From contig WPIO01000008.1 in assembly GCA_009760855.2 (NCBI GenBank), positions 10,085,001 through 10,149,000 on the forward strand: a stretch of DNA of 64,000 nt, given 5' to 3'. The stretch comes from Cristatella mucedo. Taxonomy: Eukaryota > Bryozoa > Phylactolaemata > Cristatellidae. A program made the translations under genes and the position numbers. Below, piece after piece: positions 25,881 through 44,700 of this stretch. Each line of letters opens with the position of its first letter. The stretch's first letter is position 1. The notes under the pieces are model-generated. The model was not told the DNA's origin and made no database searches. It saw only the letters and a list, made by a program, of their open reading frames with translations.

Positions 25881-28170
25881 CAGTTGTAATGTAATGTATC
25901 TCCGTCAGTAACTCCACAAAGTCATAAAGACCATGTGGGCGTTACGCAGGAGAGTTTTGTATAGCGCACTCAGCCTAAGCGGCTTTCGGTACGCATTCAG
26001 ACAACGTCTCACGCAACAAAGAGAAAGTGGGAAGCATAGCTGAGTTAGGAGAGCAGTTGAGGTAGTGAGTAGCATAGAAGTAGCCGTTCAGGACCGCTGA
26101 AAAAGATGTGCCATAGTCGGCAGTTGGAGAGTAGATGTCGTTGCGTAAGAATTGTGGAAGCGAGTTCCACAGTCTAGGACCTGCAGAGCTAAAGCTTCTG
26201 TCGCCAACTGTCTTTAAGCAGAGGAATGGGACAGCTAATTTATTGTCCACACAGGACCTGAGGGCGCGAACAGGCTGAAACTGATGTAGCAGTTCAGCTA
26301 GGTATGAAGCAGCCAAGCCGTGGCGGGCCTTGTGGGTCAGCGTAAGAACTTAGCTCCGTATACTTTGCTCAACCGGCAACCGTCCTAGCTTTTCCAGCAA
26401 AGGTGACACGTGCTCAAACCGCTGGGACTTGAAGACCAGCCTTGCAGCCATATTCATAGTCCGCTGTAGTGGCATAATAGCTCTGTTTGGTAGCCCAGCC
26501 AAAAGGGAATTACAATAATCAAGCCGAGACAGAACTAGAGAGCTAGTTAAATTTTTTACAAGCCACACTGTGGGATACAGCTTCTAATCTTGGATAGGGA
26601 TCGGATGTGATGGCTAGCTGTAGAGGCAGTCTTCTGAATGAAGCTTTTGAAATTGAGGCAGCTGTCGAACACGACACCTAGATTACGAGCACGTGGTGAA
26701 GGTCGTACAATAGCATCGCCTATTAGAACAGCAAAGCCTTTTAATCCAGCCACACGCTTAGGGTGTCCTATGAGAAGCAGTTCGGTTTTATCGTCATTTA
26801 ATTTCAGGAAGTTTTCCGACATCCAGGATCGAATATCGGCAAGGCAAGCATTCAGTTTGCTCAGTTGCTTTTCGGCTGAGCCCTTAATATCTGGGGAGTC
26901 AGACCTCACAGCATTGGCCAGTAAATGGTTTACTGTCTTATAAATCTGTTTAGTGTCCGACTGGCAGGAATTCAGTTTTCTAATGAAAAAAGAAGCCCTG
27001 GCTTTCTTAAGCTTTCGTGCGTAAACACGAAGGAAGTCTTTAAAATTGACTAAGTCTGCCTCAGACCCCGATTTCTTGAAACGACGTTCCAGCCTGCGCT
27101 TAACACGGCACATCTTAAGGAGTTTTTTTGTAAATTGAAAGCAATCTCGACGACTTTGAACACGGATAGAGCGAACGGGAGCATGCTTGTCAAAAGCTTA
27201 ACACGGCACATCTTAAGGAGTTTTTTTGTAAATTGAAAGCAATCTCGACGACTTTGAACACGGATAGAGCGAACGGGAGCATGCTTGTCAAGAGCACTCC
27301 TGAGTGTCATGTTCATCGCATCTGTGAGGGTATCGAGGCTGCCGGTCGAGTCTGAATGCAGATCAAGAAGGCCTGCATCACAAACAGATTTCAAAAACTT
27401 GTCCATGTCAATGCTTTGTAAGTTACGTCGTTTGGAAAATTCGACATTGCCCTGCACGTACGAGGGAGCAGGAACAGTAAACGAGACCGAACAATGATCT
27501 GAGAGGGTCAGTGGGCACACCACAAAGTCAGTGGGGAGGACATCCTTAGTGATCACGAGATCTAGAATGTGGCCACCGACGTGGGTGCTATGATTAACGT
27601 GTTGGGCCAAACCAAGATTCTCCAGACAGTCAAGAAATGAGCGGACCTGGCTGTTGCTAGGGTTGTCAACGCGAATATTGAAGTCTCCTAAAATCAGTAG
27701 CGGCCTGTCACACACAAATATTTTAGCGAGGAACTCTGAAAACTCCTCTATAAACAAGTTTAGACAGCCATAAGGAGGCCGGTATATCACAACGGTGAGA
27801 GGCATTGTCTTTGATGAAGACCTGATAGCAACCGATTCAAACGATGACACATGCGAGAAACTGCACATTTTATAGCCAAACGATTCGCGAACAACAATTG
27901 CAACCCCGCCACCAACCTTGTCAGAACGCATGGACTGATAGAATGAGAACCCGGGTGGGGTGGTCGCGGAAATACAGCTACTGGAACATGGCGTCATCCA
28001 GGTTTCGGTAAGCAGAAATGCATCTAGCTTCTCCTGGACCACCTGATCGCGGATAAGTAACCCCTTGGTTTTTAGCGAGCGGATATTTAGTTGGTGGCTG
28101 AGCTCTGCTGCATATGCCAAGCGCCCGGATAAACAGCACTGTTGTAAGTTGTCTTAGGGGGCTGCACAAA
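25881..28170 (-). mobile_element. LINE family B with APE-type endonuclease; RT core deleted
   Basis: On the minus strand, 28120 to about 27300 encodes an apurinic-type endonuclease: LNIRSLKTKGLLI, LLTETWMTP, GGGVAIVVRES, LILGDFNIRVD, and LSDHCSVSFTV. It then carries a 98-bp tandem duplication, and 27113-26350 resumes with the distal RT region (FLKLNDDKTELLLIG, NLGVVFDS, LDYCNSLLAGLP). The catalytic palm (PQGSVL, YADD) is missing, so the element is internally deleted. The tail is unlike family A. Confidence 0.87.
27098..27293. repeat. 98-bp tandem duplication within LINE family B
   Basis: 27098-27195 is repeated at 27196-27293 with about one mismatch (cttaacacggcacatcttaa start). 98 is not a multiple of three, so it shifts the frame. 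Confidence 0.95.
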
Positions 28171-32744: not shown

Positions 32745-33633
32745 ATGGAGTATATGCTAGCATTAGTGCTTACTCTGTGGAGTGATTAGCTCTAAGAACT
32801 GATCGAAACTTGCTAGGTTTGAAGTTTTGATATAAGACTAACGCTCAGCAGTCACAACTCGTTCCAGTGTCTTAGGTACGAACTGCACTGGGGAGACTGG
32901 GCGGAGGTTGCCCAAGTTTAATTGCAGTCGCGACTTCTTCCAGGGTTTCCTTAGGACAACCTTTTGAAGGAACCAGACCTAAGGATAATAATAGACATGC
33001 ATTTATTATGTTAGTTTCACTCATTTAGAGCTTCGGCTAATGTGTTTCGTAAAATTTCACCAGTAAAGGCAGGTCGGATGGAGCTGAGCAGAAGGGGCTG
33101 AGGAAAGATATTTTTCGCACGGCATCGATATCACGGGTCTTAGAGTCTTGCAATTAAGAGACGATTTTTGACACCGAAGACAATACGTAGAGCAGAAAGA
33201 AGAGACCTGCATGTGGTCTAACGTGCTAAGTTCGATAGTAACAGACCAGTTGCTACCATACAATGGTGGGAGAACCTTTGACCTTTGTTGTGAGTGAGGC
33301 GATTCACACGAGCCACAGAAGAAAATGAATTGGCCAATGCACGACATTCGGCAATCAAGGGGCCGCCAGTTGGGTCATCGACATAAATGTTAAAAAATAC
33401 ACAGTACAAGGAAGGGATGATTTCTGGAAAACATAACCAAAATGAGGTCAGAAAAAATCTGAAATAAAGCAAGACTTGGTAACCGGGGGGGGGGGGGAAT
33501 AGATTGCCACCACTGGCTTGTTGGAGGGACTCAATACACAATTTGAGACCCCTTCGAGAGTAGTGCAAGCTCCTTGACATTGAAGGAGGAAAACAATAAT
33601 GATCACCCCACTATCAGTTTTGATTGATCTCGA
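32745..33633 (-). mobile_element. LINE family A, distal part (RT to endonuclease), interrupted
   Basis: Minus-strand fragments: RT-leading region at 32745-33000 and endonuclease region at 33060-33600 (VDDPTGGPLIAECRALANSF and VNRLTHNKGQ, compare VNSPTHIKGH at 52190). It is interrupted at 33633 by an insertion and resumes at 34069. Confidence 0.78.
33614..33633. repeat. 20-bp direct repeat, left copy (target-site-duplication-like)
   Basis: tcagttttgattgatctcga, identical to 34069-34088. It flanks the 435-bp insertion inside the LINE. Confidence 0.93.
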
Positions 33634-33775
33634 TTTGATTTGGCTGCAACACTAACTCAGTCTGCCTCAAGATTTTCTCGGTCCACTGCTTCGTCCTTTC
33701 AGCTCTCAGGAAGAGATTCTCGAGGTGAGCATCTAATTCTGTTCTGTCAGAGGTGCCAAGCTTTTCCTCGGTGTA
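33634..33775 (-). pseudogene. Captured endophilin-B (SH3GLB)-like exon
   Basis: On the minus strand an acceptor (tctgcattgcag after a long TC tract) is followed by 47 codons: [20 protein letters not shown], then LFLRAERTKQWTEKILRQTE and LVLQPNQ. This is the N-BAR start of endophilin-B (SH3GLB1 has [17 protein letters not shown] and WTEKI.KQTE.LLQPN). The frame then runs into the LINE and stops after six residues. No other exons of this gene are nearby, so it is an isolated fragment, not a gene. Confidence 0.85.
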
Positions 33776-33780
33776 CTGCA

Positions 33781-33784
<4 letters not shown>

Positions 33785-33870
<86 letters not shown>
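33785..33870 (+). repeat. (GA)n microsatellite
   Basis: About 86 bases of GA on +. On the minus strand it is the polypyrimidine tract of the captured endophilin-B acceptor. Confidence 0.97.
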
Positions 33871-33874
<4 letters not shown>

Positions 33875-34068
33875 TGACAGCACGTGAACCGACCGTGCAG
33901 ACAGCAGCCTCACCTCAACAGGAAAGCTACAAAGCACGAGATAGCAGAGAGAAAGGCTCGTGATTAGGCTAGCAGTGAGGGCAGGATCGGTGGCTTGTAT
34001 CCCTGCCGACCCACATCCCCCTTCTCTGCCGCACCCGAGTCCATCTCATCGCATCTAAAGTAAAGTGC
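33871..34068 (-). other. Rest of the insertion: presumed flanking intron of the captured exon
   Basis: Lies between the GA tract and the right-hand 20-bp direct repeat. No coding match recognised; a GTTGAG|gtgagg donor-like site is seen on the minus strand near 33915. No poly(A). Confidence 0.45.
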
Positions 34069-34440
34069 TCAGTTTTGATTGATCTCGAGGTATGAAAGAA
34101 ACAAAGCCTGTATGGGTGGAAAAGCAAGATCTTGGTTACAGCAAACCGGTCCAAGTTGCCATCACGTTAAGTATTCGTAGGGGTTTATTACACATTGAAC
34201 GGCATGCCAAACCTATACTTTAAGTAGCCCAAGGTTATATATAGTTGGCCTGACGGCCACTAAGGGCGACACACTGCAATGCTTGAACCAGATGACCTCT
34301 AGTCTTTAACTTGCTCCGAAATTACAAGGGCCCCCAGCAGCTGCAAGTCTATAAAGGCCATCTCAATGCAAACGAACCAAGACCATGTCTTTTCATGCCT
34401 GGATCAATGCTTGGAAAGGCAATCTGAGCCTCATTTAAGC
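34069..34440 (-). mobile_element. LINE family A, resumed endonuclease region
   Basis: Starts with the right copy of the 20-bp repeat (34069-34088), then ggtatgaaagaaac and aggggtttattacacattga, parallel to the near full-length copy at 52515-52690. Confidence 0.75.
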
Positions 34441-37978: not shown

Positions 37979-40900
37979 GGCTCAAGTACTATCCTCAAAT
38001 CCTTCAGACGGTACAGCATCAGTGCACCCCTGTGACTTAATGCCCGAAACAAGACATTGGCTAGTTGAGCAGAGCAGCTCCAAACAAAGCCTGCCCAAAG
38101 CTACGGGCCGGCATCAAGCAACCTTGCTGAGAATACACTATAAAAAAATCGCTTAACACTGCTCTGTTGCTGCTGTGGACGCACGTACACACTCACACAC
38201 AAACACTGCTCGTCAGAAACCACTTTTGGGGGCATCGAGCTGCAAATGCGGAAGGCCTGAGCACACTCCGCCACCGATTAGACCCGATTCCAGATCCAGA
38301 TCTGGATTCAGATCTGCTCACGCACCGTCCGTCTCGCGCAGCAATGACGAGTCGGTCTCGCGTAGAGCTGACGAGTCCGACTGATGATCTGTCATCGACA
38401 GCAACGAAGGTGACACAGCGTGCAACGTCACTGCCGCCGAATATCCGTCGGATTTCGGTGCGCTATCGCTACCCGTCGGGTACGAGTGGAGCGCGTCTCG
38501 CTCTTGCAGCAGCCGGAACACGAGTGCCTGCAGCTCCGTCACCTTGGCAAGCACGCCGTCTCGCTCGTGCGCGAGCTGAGCGATGCACCTGCATGCAGGC
38601 AGAGCACAGCGGCGCACAGATCACGATCCGACTCCGGAGGCAAGGCGGCCGAACTCGCAAGGCGCCCTCACAAGCAAGGCGGCCGTATGCGTGAGGCGGA
38701 CGAATACAGATCAGCTGCTCCTGTTACCGTTAACGGCCCCCTCCCACCCTTGGAGATGAGAAGGAAGGGCAGGGTGGCCAGCCAGTGCGCATCTCTGCAC
38801 ACCTGCCAAACACATTCACAAGTCGGACCCTGCAGTCGGACCGCTGAGTGACGCAGGTGAAAGGAGGAGAACAGGGACAGGCAGCGGCAGCCGGAAGAAG
38901 GAGCAGCGGTCGGCCGGCCGAGCGAGCTTAGGCACCTGTCCTTGGCCTCGGAGCGCTCCTTCATGACGGCTCGCTGCTGGTGATACATGGAGATATAGTC
39001 GCCGATCGTCTCCGCCTCGCCCTGCAGCTGTGCGTTCTCGTGCTGAAGCCGCTCGCTGGCGTCCAGCAGATCGGCGCGAAGCTGCGCCAGGGCGCTGAAC
39101 TTGTCCTGCATCGACCGGCCACGCAGACGTGACAGCCCGCGACGTGCTCCCCGTCCATTCAAGGTCGCTGACGATTGAGCTCAGGCCCCACCCCAGATTG
39201 CCATTGCGAATGCCGTCGCGATGATGCTGGCATGCACTCGAGATGCGTGCGCATGTGGGCATCTGCGTTCGAGAGCTAGTGCCAGCACTAAGGGGCATGA
39301 ACAAATAGGCACGCTTCTGGATTTCCTTGGGTTCAGCACGTAGGAGTCCTCCTGAGCAATAAGTTATGGACCAAAACTCTGCTTCTTGCTAGGCAATTAA
39401 GTCAAAAAGCCAATAGCCAATGAAAGCATAATTTTTTTTAGTACTTCCCATCAATTTACAGGCTTTAATTAGGTCAAAAAGCCAATAGCCAATGAAAGCA
39501 TAATGTTTTTAGTACTTACCATCAATTTGCAAGATTTCAAACAGTTACGTGTCTTTGTGAGCACACGTGTGCCCTCGAATCCACGGGTGTGTATTTGTGC
39601 ATGTATGGGTCACCAGCAAGTGCTAGCAGGTGCACACGGGCGCAGGTCTATGAGTGTGTGTGTGTGTGTGTGCATGTGCGAAATGTGCGCTTGTAAGCAT
39701 TTAAGTTTGCATGTATGCATTCTGCTCATCCGCACGTGCACGTGGAACAAGCGAAGCTATGCTCGAGTGGGCTTCCCTGGGAAGGAGGCATGGGTCGTGA
39801 TCGTGCATGAGGGCAATCGCTGCTGCCTCATCGCATGCACGATCACGTCAACGTCTAGCATACCAGACAAACGAGGCAGCGTCTGAACATGGCATGGTAT
39901 CAGAAGCTGAAAAGGGACAATCCTATTATTGGCAAGATTCAAACTGGGGGGAGGGGCTAGGAGTCTGGGTGTCAAAACATTTTTAGACCCACTGCACTAA
40001 CCACTCATCAACAGCAGAGGTAAACCTAGGCAGGCAGGAAATGGAGGTTGCTATGGCTACTGTAGAGGCAATTAGCAAATGTAAAGCGCCTAGAAGGAGA
40101 TTGAGTTCTCTGAGGGCGCTTTATCAAGTTTACTATTATTATTATTATTATTATTAATTAAAGTGTGCTGGCGCCGACTCGGATCAACATGTGCCAAACA
40201 CGAAGCACAATGCTGGCTGGTAAGTGACTGGCAATGAGTAGGCACCACCCTCATGCAGCAGTGAAGAAGGAGGAAGGGTAGGAGGAAGAGAAGGAGGAAG
40301 GGAAGGAGGAAGGAATGGAGGAAGAGAAAGAGGAAGGAAAGGAGGAAGGAAAGGAGGAAGAAAAGGAAGAAGAAAAGGAGGAAGAAAAGGAGGAAGGAAA
40401 TGAGGAAGAAAAGGAGGAAGAAAAGGAGGAAGGAAATGAGGAAGGAAATGAGGAAGGAAATGAGGAAGGAAATGAGGAAGGGAAGGAAGAAGGGAAGGAG
40501 GAAGGGAAGGAGGAAGGGAAGGAGGAAGGAAAGGAGGAAGGGAAGGAGGAAGGGAAGGAGGAAGGGAAGGAGGAAGGGAAGGAACAAGGGAAGGAAAAAG
40601 GGAAGGGAAAAGGGAAGGGAAAAGGGAAGGGCCCTGCCGGAGGCAGATGGGCGGCCGAGCACAACAAAGGACGCAGCAGGTTGAATGACAGCTTTCGAGC
40701 ATCCTTCCACCCCGATTCGACACGCGCACTCCTTTGAATGCGATGCCCGCCAGCAATCGAACGCTCAGCACAAACGTGAATTTCAAATGGATTCTTGCGA
40801 TCGCAGCTAGAAGCACGGCGGTAGCACACCTGTAACCACTGGTAAACTGCATGTAAACCACATGGTAAACACATTGTTGTGGGACCGACACTAAACGGCT

Positions 40901-41765: not shown

Positions 41766-44700
41766 TCTGATTATAAGGCCAACCATTGGCCGACGAAGTG
41801 CTCGGCTACAGGACGGCGAGCCCTACAGTGTCCTACCATCTCCTGGCTCCTAGCCCAGTCGCGATGGTGAACTTGATCGTCACCGTCCGCGCTGTCGGTG
41901 CTCGCCGTTGGAGCGTTGGCAGCCTGAACGACAAGCCTTCGCAGGTCGCCATTCTGCCGAGTCAATGCGGTGACAGCTTCCTGCACAAGCGAACGAACGA
42001 AGAATGAAAAGTGAGCATGCACGACGCCGAAAGAACGAACGGGGAGGGGTCTCCATCATAACGAAAACGACAGAATCGTGCCGTTTTCGAAAGGGTCTCT
42101 AAGCCGGGCCACCTGCACGAGCACAGGCTTTAGAAGCAGACGGCTGGACGACAGCATCGGCCATAACAAGAGCTCGAACAGCAGAGCACGTGAAACAGCG
42201 AGCTCAAATGCAATGGTCAGATCCAGCTCAGAGAGGCAGGCGGGAGGCCGCCGCAAATGCTCGGGCGAGGACACCGGCGGTGGACAGCTTTGTCATGAGC
42301 GTGTCACTCTTTGCGCGCTCATGCGTCACAGACTGGGGTCTAGTGTCCCAATGAGACTACAACGAAGTCTAGTGAGCATGGCTTGACTCGATATATGAAG
42401 TCGCCCAGGCATGAAGTGCCTGCTTTGCACATCATTCACGGTTGCATAAAACAAGCATTTCAAGGGAGAATGTCAAGAAAATATCTATAAAATTTGTCCG
42501 ACAATCGAATGTGTTTGTGGTACCTTTCGAAAGACAAATATGTTAGAACTGGGATCGGAAGTTCTAAGGAATTCCACGTGAAAGAAAAATCACTTATGCC
42601 AACCATGCCTAACCCGGATGTAAACCGGAAGCAACAAATCTACAAATAAAAGATTTACCAATCTCTGCATCATATGCGACTTGTATCCCAACTTGTCGAA
42701 CCTTGGTAGATCGCTATAGATGCTTGAAGCTTGTTGAGGTGCATATTTGTGACTTTTATGCAGCTTCATTTCCAGGGTTGGTTGGTGCCTTGTAAATTAA
42801 ATAACCTAATATTTCGTATCGGAATGAAATTTGAAATGCAAGTTCAGCTCTGCTTCTTTTACCCTAGTTTTAATTATTTTGATTTCGGTTTGATAAATTT
42901 GGCTGTATACGTCATCAAACGTCCTGGAGCTTTATTTTCCGTAATCGTGGACATATAGAACCAATTGCATCAAACCGAAATCAAAGATATTAAAAACTAA
43001 AGCAGAGCTGAACTCACATTTCAAATTACACTACGATACGTGTAATACTAGTGAGATTATTTAATTTACAAGGCACCAACCAACCCTGGAAATGAAGCTG
43101 CATAAAAGTCACAAATATGCACCTCAACAAGCTTCAAGCATCTATAGCGATCTACCAAGGTTCGACAAGTTGGGATACAAGTCGCATATGATGCAGGGAT
43201 CGGTAAATCTTTTATTTGTAGATTTGTTGCTTCCGGTTTACATCCGGGTTAGACGTGGTTTGCATAACGAATTTTTCCTTTCATGCAGAAGTTGTCAGAA
43301 TTTCCGATCCCAGTTCTAACATATTTGTCTTTCGAAAGGTACCATAGACACGTATTCGATTGCCGGAGAAATGTTATTTTCTTGACTTTCCCGCTTTAAG
43401 TAATTCATTTTATCCTCAAGGAAAAAAGTTAACACAATTATAAACAAACTCATTTATATAGCAGCAGAAGAGGCCTTTACGGCTTGCAGTGGGCAATCAA
43501 GAATCGCCCACAGCAGGACCCGAAAGCTCGACCTGGATCGTGAAGAGGGAGCACCTAACCCCTGGGCTAAGACCTTGGGTCCAGGCCTAGATATTAAAAT
43601 CAAACAGTAGCGTTATGGCCCCAAGCCAGGAAGGCCAGCGAGCTGCAGCTATGAAAACAGCCCGTGTAAGTACTTGAAGGAAAATTAACATGGATTAAGA
43701 AAATGCTGCAAAGAACAGGCTAGTTTTAAGTGGCCCTGGTTTGGCCCAGGGGTTCCACTCGCCTTTAACAACTCTGGTCAAGATGAATGCATTTGATGAC
43801 CGAGGTCGTGGGCTCGAGCCCTGCGGCATATGTGAAGCGCCTGGATAGAGACTACGGTCTCTTAGGGGCTATACAAATACAGTACATGTATATATATCTA
43901 AGTTTCCCTGTAAATATCAAGACAGGGAATGTTGTAATGTCAGTCGGTAGCAAGTTGCCAGTGTTGGGAGCATAGGAGCTGATGGCACGTTCTCTAAATA
44001 AGTTGAGATTGTCTATCAGCACAGCTAAACGATCTGAGTCGGAAGAACCTGGTGGTAAGGAGGGAATATCAAGAAAATACTGATAAAGCTGGTCTGCCAA
44101 CTGAGTATTTGTTTAGTGTATTTTTCAAAAGACAAACTTGTTAGAAATGGGATCACGAGATGTCCACGATTCTAAAAAATAAAGCTCCGGACGTTTGAAG
44201 ACATGTGCAGCAAACTGTATCTCACTTAAATCAGAAGTTTTTCTAAAATCTGCCATTCAACCAGAGCTGAACTGCACAGCAAATTTCACCCTGGTACTTG
44301 AAGGCAATCAAGTGATTTTGCAAGGCATCAAGCTACAACAAAAATGAAGCTGTATAAAAGTCACGAGCACGCACCTCAATAAGTGTCACACATTTAGCTC
44401 GATCTACTAAGGTTCAGAAAGTCATGATACAAGCCGAATTACTATGGTGCAGATCTGTAAATTTGTCCTTTGTAGATATGTTGCTTCCGGTTTAATCCGG
44501 GTTATGCATGGCTTGCATAAAAAAATCAGTTTTTCTTTTATGTTGAAGTCGTCAGAACTTCCGATCCCATTTCTAACATGCTTATCTTTTGAAAGGTACC
44601 ATAAATAAATATTTGGTTGCCGGACCAAAATTATAATAATCTTAACATTCCCCTCCCTGTAAGCTAGGAAGCCTAAGCAGTATGTATTTCAGAAATGTAA

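Follow-up and report, generated by a model that had tools for sequence, protein, structure and literature searches.

A recent insertion of an endophilin-B exon and its intron tail into a decayed LINE of Cristatella mucedo

A segment of about 430 bp from the endophilin-B (SH3GLB) gene of Cristatella mucedo, starting in intron 1 and stopping 3 nt short of the exon 2 end, was recently inserted by copy and paste into a decayed LINE on another contig. The source lies on contig C550 and the copy on contig C676, within the 64-kb stretch of DNA analyzed here (the window). The observation made in the initial annotation of this window, an endophilin-B exon with an intron tail that lies in a LINE between 20-bp repeats, is confirmed. 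With regard to mechanism, we lean slightly towards a tailless retrocopy of unspliced endophilin-B pre-mRNA made at a LINE nick (probability about 0.5). The insert is an instance of a known route for the scattering of gene pieces, and a single, probably inert copy leaves the general view unchanged. It is nevertheless a very young and well resolved case, with source, copy and related empty sites in one genome, and it shows the transfer of an exon together with its own acceptor, including the junction bases on which the arguments about mechanism rest.

The copied exon and its source gene

The insert occupies 435 bp (33634-34068) and its sense strand is the minus strand. Over residues 1-47, the minus-strand peptide that begins at 33775 matches Endophilin-B1 in PDB (E 3.6e-16), and it also matches the Pfam BAR domain (2.4e-09), which bears out the 47-codon SH3GLB-like N-BAR segment described initially. 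The intact acceptor and the long TC tract of that description are likewise present: the acceptor, ...CTCTGCATTGCAG|TACACC, stands directly upstream of the copied exon, and TRF counts 45 TC units at 33785-33874 (minus strand). The first 139 nt of endophilin-B exon 2 (33637-33775, minus strand) show no difference from the source; the exon's final 3 nt (CGA) and the donor are absent, and an ORF reading gives an open frame of 53 codons followed by a TGA inside the flanking repeat (33614-33775, minus strand). The 3' end of intron 1, including the acceptor AG, was copied along with the exon (33776-34065, minus strand).

The parental gene was sought in the whole genome (572 Mb, 688 contigs). A DNA search with a 475-bp stretch, of a type that ignores simple repeats and highly frequent words, returned two places, the insert itself and C550:11635791-11636145. 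The protein search found the same two places and one match at E 5.3; this match aside, no third copy of the insert was found by either search. At the C550 locus (11.636 Mb), a typed human SH3GLB1 query identified exon 2, later BAR exons and SH3 exons, arranged in that order across ~20 kb, with one further match (E 0.41) outside the exon order, and did not find exon 1. The same query applied to the window found exon 2 alone and no other endophilin-B exon. Neither of the two results named initially as refuting, a protein search without endophilin-B similarity or adjacent in-phase endophilin-B exons, was obtained.

Outside the TC tract, 2 differences separate source and copy over 347 bases. Both fall in the 197 bases of intron before the tract, each a C in the source and a T in the copy, and none lies in the 150 bases that begin just ahead of the acceptor and end at the breakpoint, which indicates that the insertion is recent. 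The tract itself is longer in the copy than in the source, with a pure CT run of 43 versus 6 units. Past the breakpoint the source continues CCAAATC CGA|gtgagt and has further exons beyond exon 2. If the donor is read at CCGA|gtgagt, which is our reading of the sequence, the breakpoint would lie 3 nt before the exon 2 donor.

Target LINE and empty sites

The insert is flanked by two identical copies of a 20-bp direct repeat, TCAGTTTTGATTGATCTCGA, at a spacing of 455. In the sense of the insert, the copy at 34069-34088 lies on the 5' side and the copy at 33614-33633 on the 3' side. Beyond them are two parts of the endonuclease domain of a decayed LINE, both on the minus strand: an upstream part (34089-34256) and a downstream part (33281-33613) with interspersed relatives. 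The similarity is weak on both flanks (tblastn), extending over 34256-34071 upstream (E 0.002, to a LINE ORF at 52746-52087) and over 33630-33454 (E 1.4e-5) and 33502-33281 (E 0.015) downstream. Part of the shared RSIKT stretch is encoded by the 20-bp repeat.

From the genome, 28 related LINE loci were cut out and 17 of them compared with the joined flanks. The 11 loci left out comprise the window itself (two), a repeated cut of a locus that had been included before (one) and eight that were left out for no substantive reason. When at least 6 bases past the junction are taken as a crossing (our own limit), 11 of the 17 loci cross the site, none of which carries the insert, and 6 do not cross the junction. 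Three of the crossings are short (7 bases in L017, 13 in L033 and 17 in L012), and L009 crosses by 55. In the crossing loci the LINE continues without interruption through the 20-bp sequence, which is present once and partly diverged, so that the repeat is a true target-site duplication (TSD). The initial view of a piece that splits a LINE and is bordered by a perfect, TSD-like duplication is therefore upheld. One pair of cuts, L009/L010 (C676:10062191-10062531), lies 56 kb away and matches the right flank at 72-86% not only in the LINE but also in sequence past it, a likeness that suggests an older local duplication.

Junction bases

Of the 435 bp given initially, 429 bp correspond to the source, TC-tract length aside; the 3 bases at each end are found neither in the source nor in the target. 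Read on the minus strand, the 5' junction has the order TSD, GCA, source sequence CTTTACTTTAG; this GCA (34066-34068) is absent from the source at that point and from the empty sites shown. The order at the 3' junction is ...CCAAATC, AAA, TSD TCGAGATC, where AAA is placed at 33634-33636 by sequence comparison. Together with its neighbours it may form a 5-nt tandem, AAATC AAATC. The insert has no poly(A), AAA alone preceding the TSD, and neither AATAAA nor ATTAAA occurs within it. On the insert-sense strand the target site is CATACC|TCGAGATC, which is not A-rich (W/AAAA), and there is no A tract and no TTTT/A at the insertion site. Four nucleotides, CGAG, are common to donor and target at the 3' junction; random placements give a match of at least 4, no more than two bases from the junction, in ~3% of cases (chance about 0.03). 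A nine-letter word of the minus strand, ACCTCGAGA, occurs just twice in the window, both strands considered: in the copied exon (33718-33726) and across the target nick (34083-34091, ACC|TCGAGA), which may be chance.

Mechanism of the insertion

In the initial annotation, the retained intron was taken to mean that genomic DNA had been moved. An intron-containing segment did come from the endophilin-B locus elsewhere in the genome, but movement as DNA is not proven by the intron, because unspliced pre-mRNA has the same sequence and would give the same product. In the tailless retrocopy that we slightly favour, a pair of nicks staggered by 20 bp, for which a LINE endonuclease is the simplest agent, would free a 3' end, ...GATCTCGA. 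Unspliced endophilin-B pre-mRNA would then serve as template for the extension of this end, at the nearby CGAG. One 5-nt slip during extension would produce AAATC AAATC, synthesis would halt in intron 1, and end joining would add GCA and fill in the 20-bp duplication. A duplication of this length fits LINE-type staggered nicks. The tails of two resident LINEs, read by eye, are short repeats and not poly(A), namely (TTA)n, whose end is shared by other copies, and an ACATT-type tail seen in one copy. With such tails, the missing A-tail is weak evidence against LINE machinery in this genome.

Published tailless retrocopies have a TSD, no A-tail and a 3' truncation that is explained by internal priming (PMC5322556, PMC2912911). 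The present insert shares with those described there the TSD, the absence of an A-tail, a 3' end truncated inside the source RNA and, at that end, a short stretch common to target and template. It differs in its would-be template, an unspliced pre-mRNA, and in having a target that is not A-rich; the cases described in these reports are mammalian, ascribed to L1 and located at A-rich targets, and the screens covered small RNAs, rRNAs and some mRNA sets (PMC5322556, PMC2912911). The target, unlike the A-rich sites of mammalian tailless retrocopies, speaks against the retrocopy. Further points against it are that priming and slip require a mismatch and a 5-nt repeat and were fitted after the fact, and that the one resident LINE duplication available, an 8-11 bp repeat read by eye around the (TTA)n copy in the source intron (n=1), is shorter than 20 bp. 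Templated sequence insertion polymorphisms of class 1, as described in PMC5110952, have a tract of 10-40 A, an upstream AATAAA, a TTTT/A site and a TSD. The insert resembles them as a distant templated sequence with a TSD and lacks the 10-40 A tract, AATAAA and TTTT/A site.

The same junctions would be reached in fewer steps by patch repair at the DNA level, which we regard as quite possible. A staggered double-strand break in the LINE would have been filled with a fragment of the endophilin-B locus or a synthesis product from it, fill-in of the overhangs yielding the 20-bp duplication and end joining the fillers. Fillers at both junctions and the lack of poly(A) agree with such a repair. Short templated repeats are typical of joining by polymerase theta, and AAATC AAATC resembles them. 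In the sample of Pace et al. (2009; PMC2671141), 12 duplications between chromosomes lacked an A-tail; five of these had filler plus TSD and seven had a TSD in all, TSD sizes ranging over 4-21 nt. The donors in that study also include 4 partial exon/intron pieces. Its duplications inside transposable elements resemble the present insert as genomic sequence of other origin within an element, with filler plus TSD and no A-tail, and as templated inserts with filler, here with the CGAG as possible microhomology. The 824 cases accepted there, however, had a donor within 5 kb, and the authors state that farther ones cannot be assigned to repair with confidence (PMC2671141). In the present case the donor is on another contig. 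LINE endonucleases are, moreover, the more usual cause of a precise 20-bp duplication. Class 2, the repair-like human insertions of PMC5110952, shares non-templated junction bases with the insert and is described as free of TSDs, in contrast to the 20-bp TSD found here.

It is conceivable, though improbable, that the template was a splicing intermediate. The free 5' exon released after the first step of splicing, with intron 1 attached and its 3' end at the exon 2 donor, would have been trimmed by 3 nt, given a short A tail (AAA) and reverse transcribed into the LINE nick. This would account for a breakpoint 3 nt from the donor CCGA|gtgagt that is followed by 3 A. The CGAG microhomology explains the same position, however, the event is single, and the AAA can also be read within the 5-nt tandem; no precedent was found in a limited literature search. 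On the sequence of this one event, the CGAG match and the exon end compete as explanations for the 3' breakpoint, and AAA may be filler, a tiny A tail or part of the tandem. If a splicing intermediate was indeed used, LINE machinery would be able to reverse-transcribe such intermediates into the germline and to deliver donor-cut exons with a ready 3' splice site. A resident endophilin-B paralogue or an assembly error, for which no support was found, is very improbable: exon 2 is the sole endophilin-B exon in the window, the paralogue being rejected on this ground, related LINE sites are empty, and a perfect TSD marks the limits of homology, 3 nt of filler aside. Capture by a DNA transposon was rejected by a test of terminal inverted repeats, in which none of at least 12 nt was present at either end of the insert and its two terminal 12-letter words do not form one.

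As far as the cited reports describe their cases, known parallels cover the main features of the insert, apart from an unspliced template in a site that is not A-rich. A limited literature search found no report of unspliced, intron-bearing LINE retrocopies with a target-site duplication, nor of endophilin B exon duplication by a retrotransposon. In a survey for sister insertions with GM130 or downstream endophilin-B queries, repeats dominated the matches listed. If the RNA route is true, RNA that is neither spliced nor tailed can be mobilized by LINEs whose own tails are short repeats.

Possible effect on host transcription

From its sequence, the insert is most likely inert. The acceptor is intact, looks usable and could work, and there is no AG between 33900 and the acceptor AG. 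Downstream of the captured exon, no GTRAG donor is present at 33640-33000, and polyadenylation-type signals (AATAAA/ATTAAA) occur at 33007, 32922 and 32268 in the stretch down to 32000; a further AATAAA is located at 34189, just before the insert. The initial proposal, in which a captured exon brings along a mobile and ready-made 3' splice site, was too strong, given a single event as far as the search extends (two places in the genome), a donor left behind in the source and no GTRAG donor at 33640-33000. A multi-copy mobile unit is likewise unsupported, as the genome DNA search for other copies of the 435-bp unit yielded the source and the insert only and the protein search added just the match at E 5.3. 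With the 43-unit TC run of the copy, any branch point upstream of the tract would be moved well away from the AG.

By eye, a GM130 (GOLGA2)-like gene in the same orientation as the insert seems to span about 61 kb to 35.5 kb of the window, and the insert appears to lie ~1.4 kb downstream of its putative last exon. A coiled-coil exon at 38917-39111 (minus strand) matches Pfam GOLGA2L5 (E 8.7e-16). What we take to be the last exon was assigned by eye on the basis of human sequence; its putative frame has no Pfam match, and searches for the final exon gave five motif matches in one case, none of which was used, and 0 in another. Splicing from this upstream gene into the captured exon was rejected in a phase comparison that covers one donor: the donor read after 38936 (GAC AG|gtgcct) leaves phase 2, against a phase 0 start of the captured exon.

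Other repeats in the window

A very abundant young LINE with a (TTA)n tail is found at 668-1966. Of the other matches listed, 39 of 41 are 93-96% identical, the best 40 of 9395 candidates having been scored. A copy of this LINE lies antisense in the source gene intron (L006:7157-8009) and is flanked by the repeat CGATGTTTAAT. The region 42460-43400 is an interspersed repeat of ~940 bp that matches itself in inverted orientation as a long palindrome; many copies are among the matches listed, most of them with 86-89% identity in one orientation. At 27098-27295, a 98-bp tandem duplication with 99% matches is located inside a LINE reading frame.
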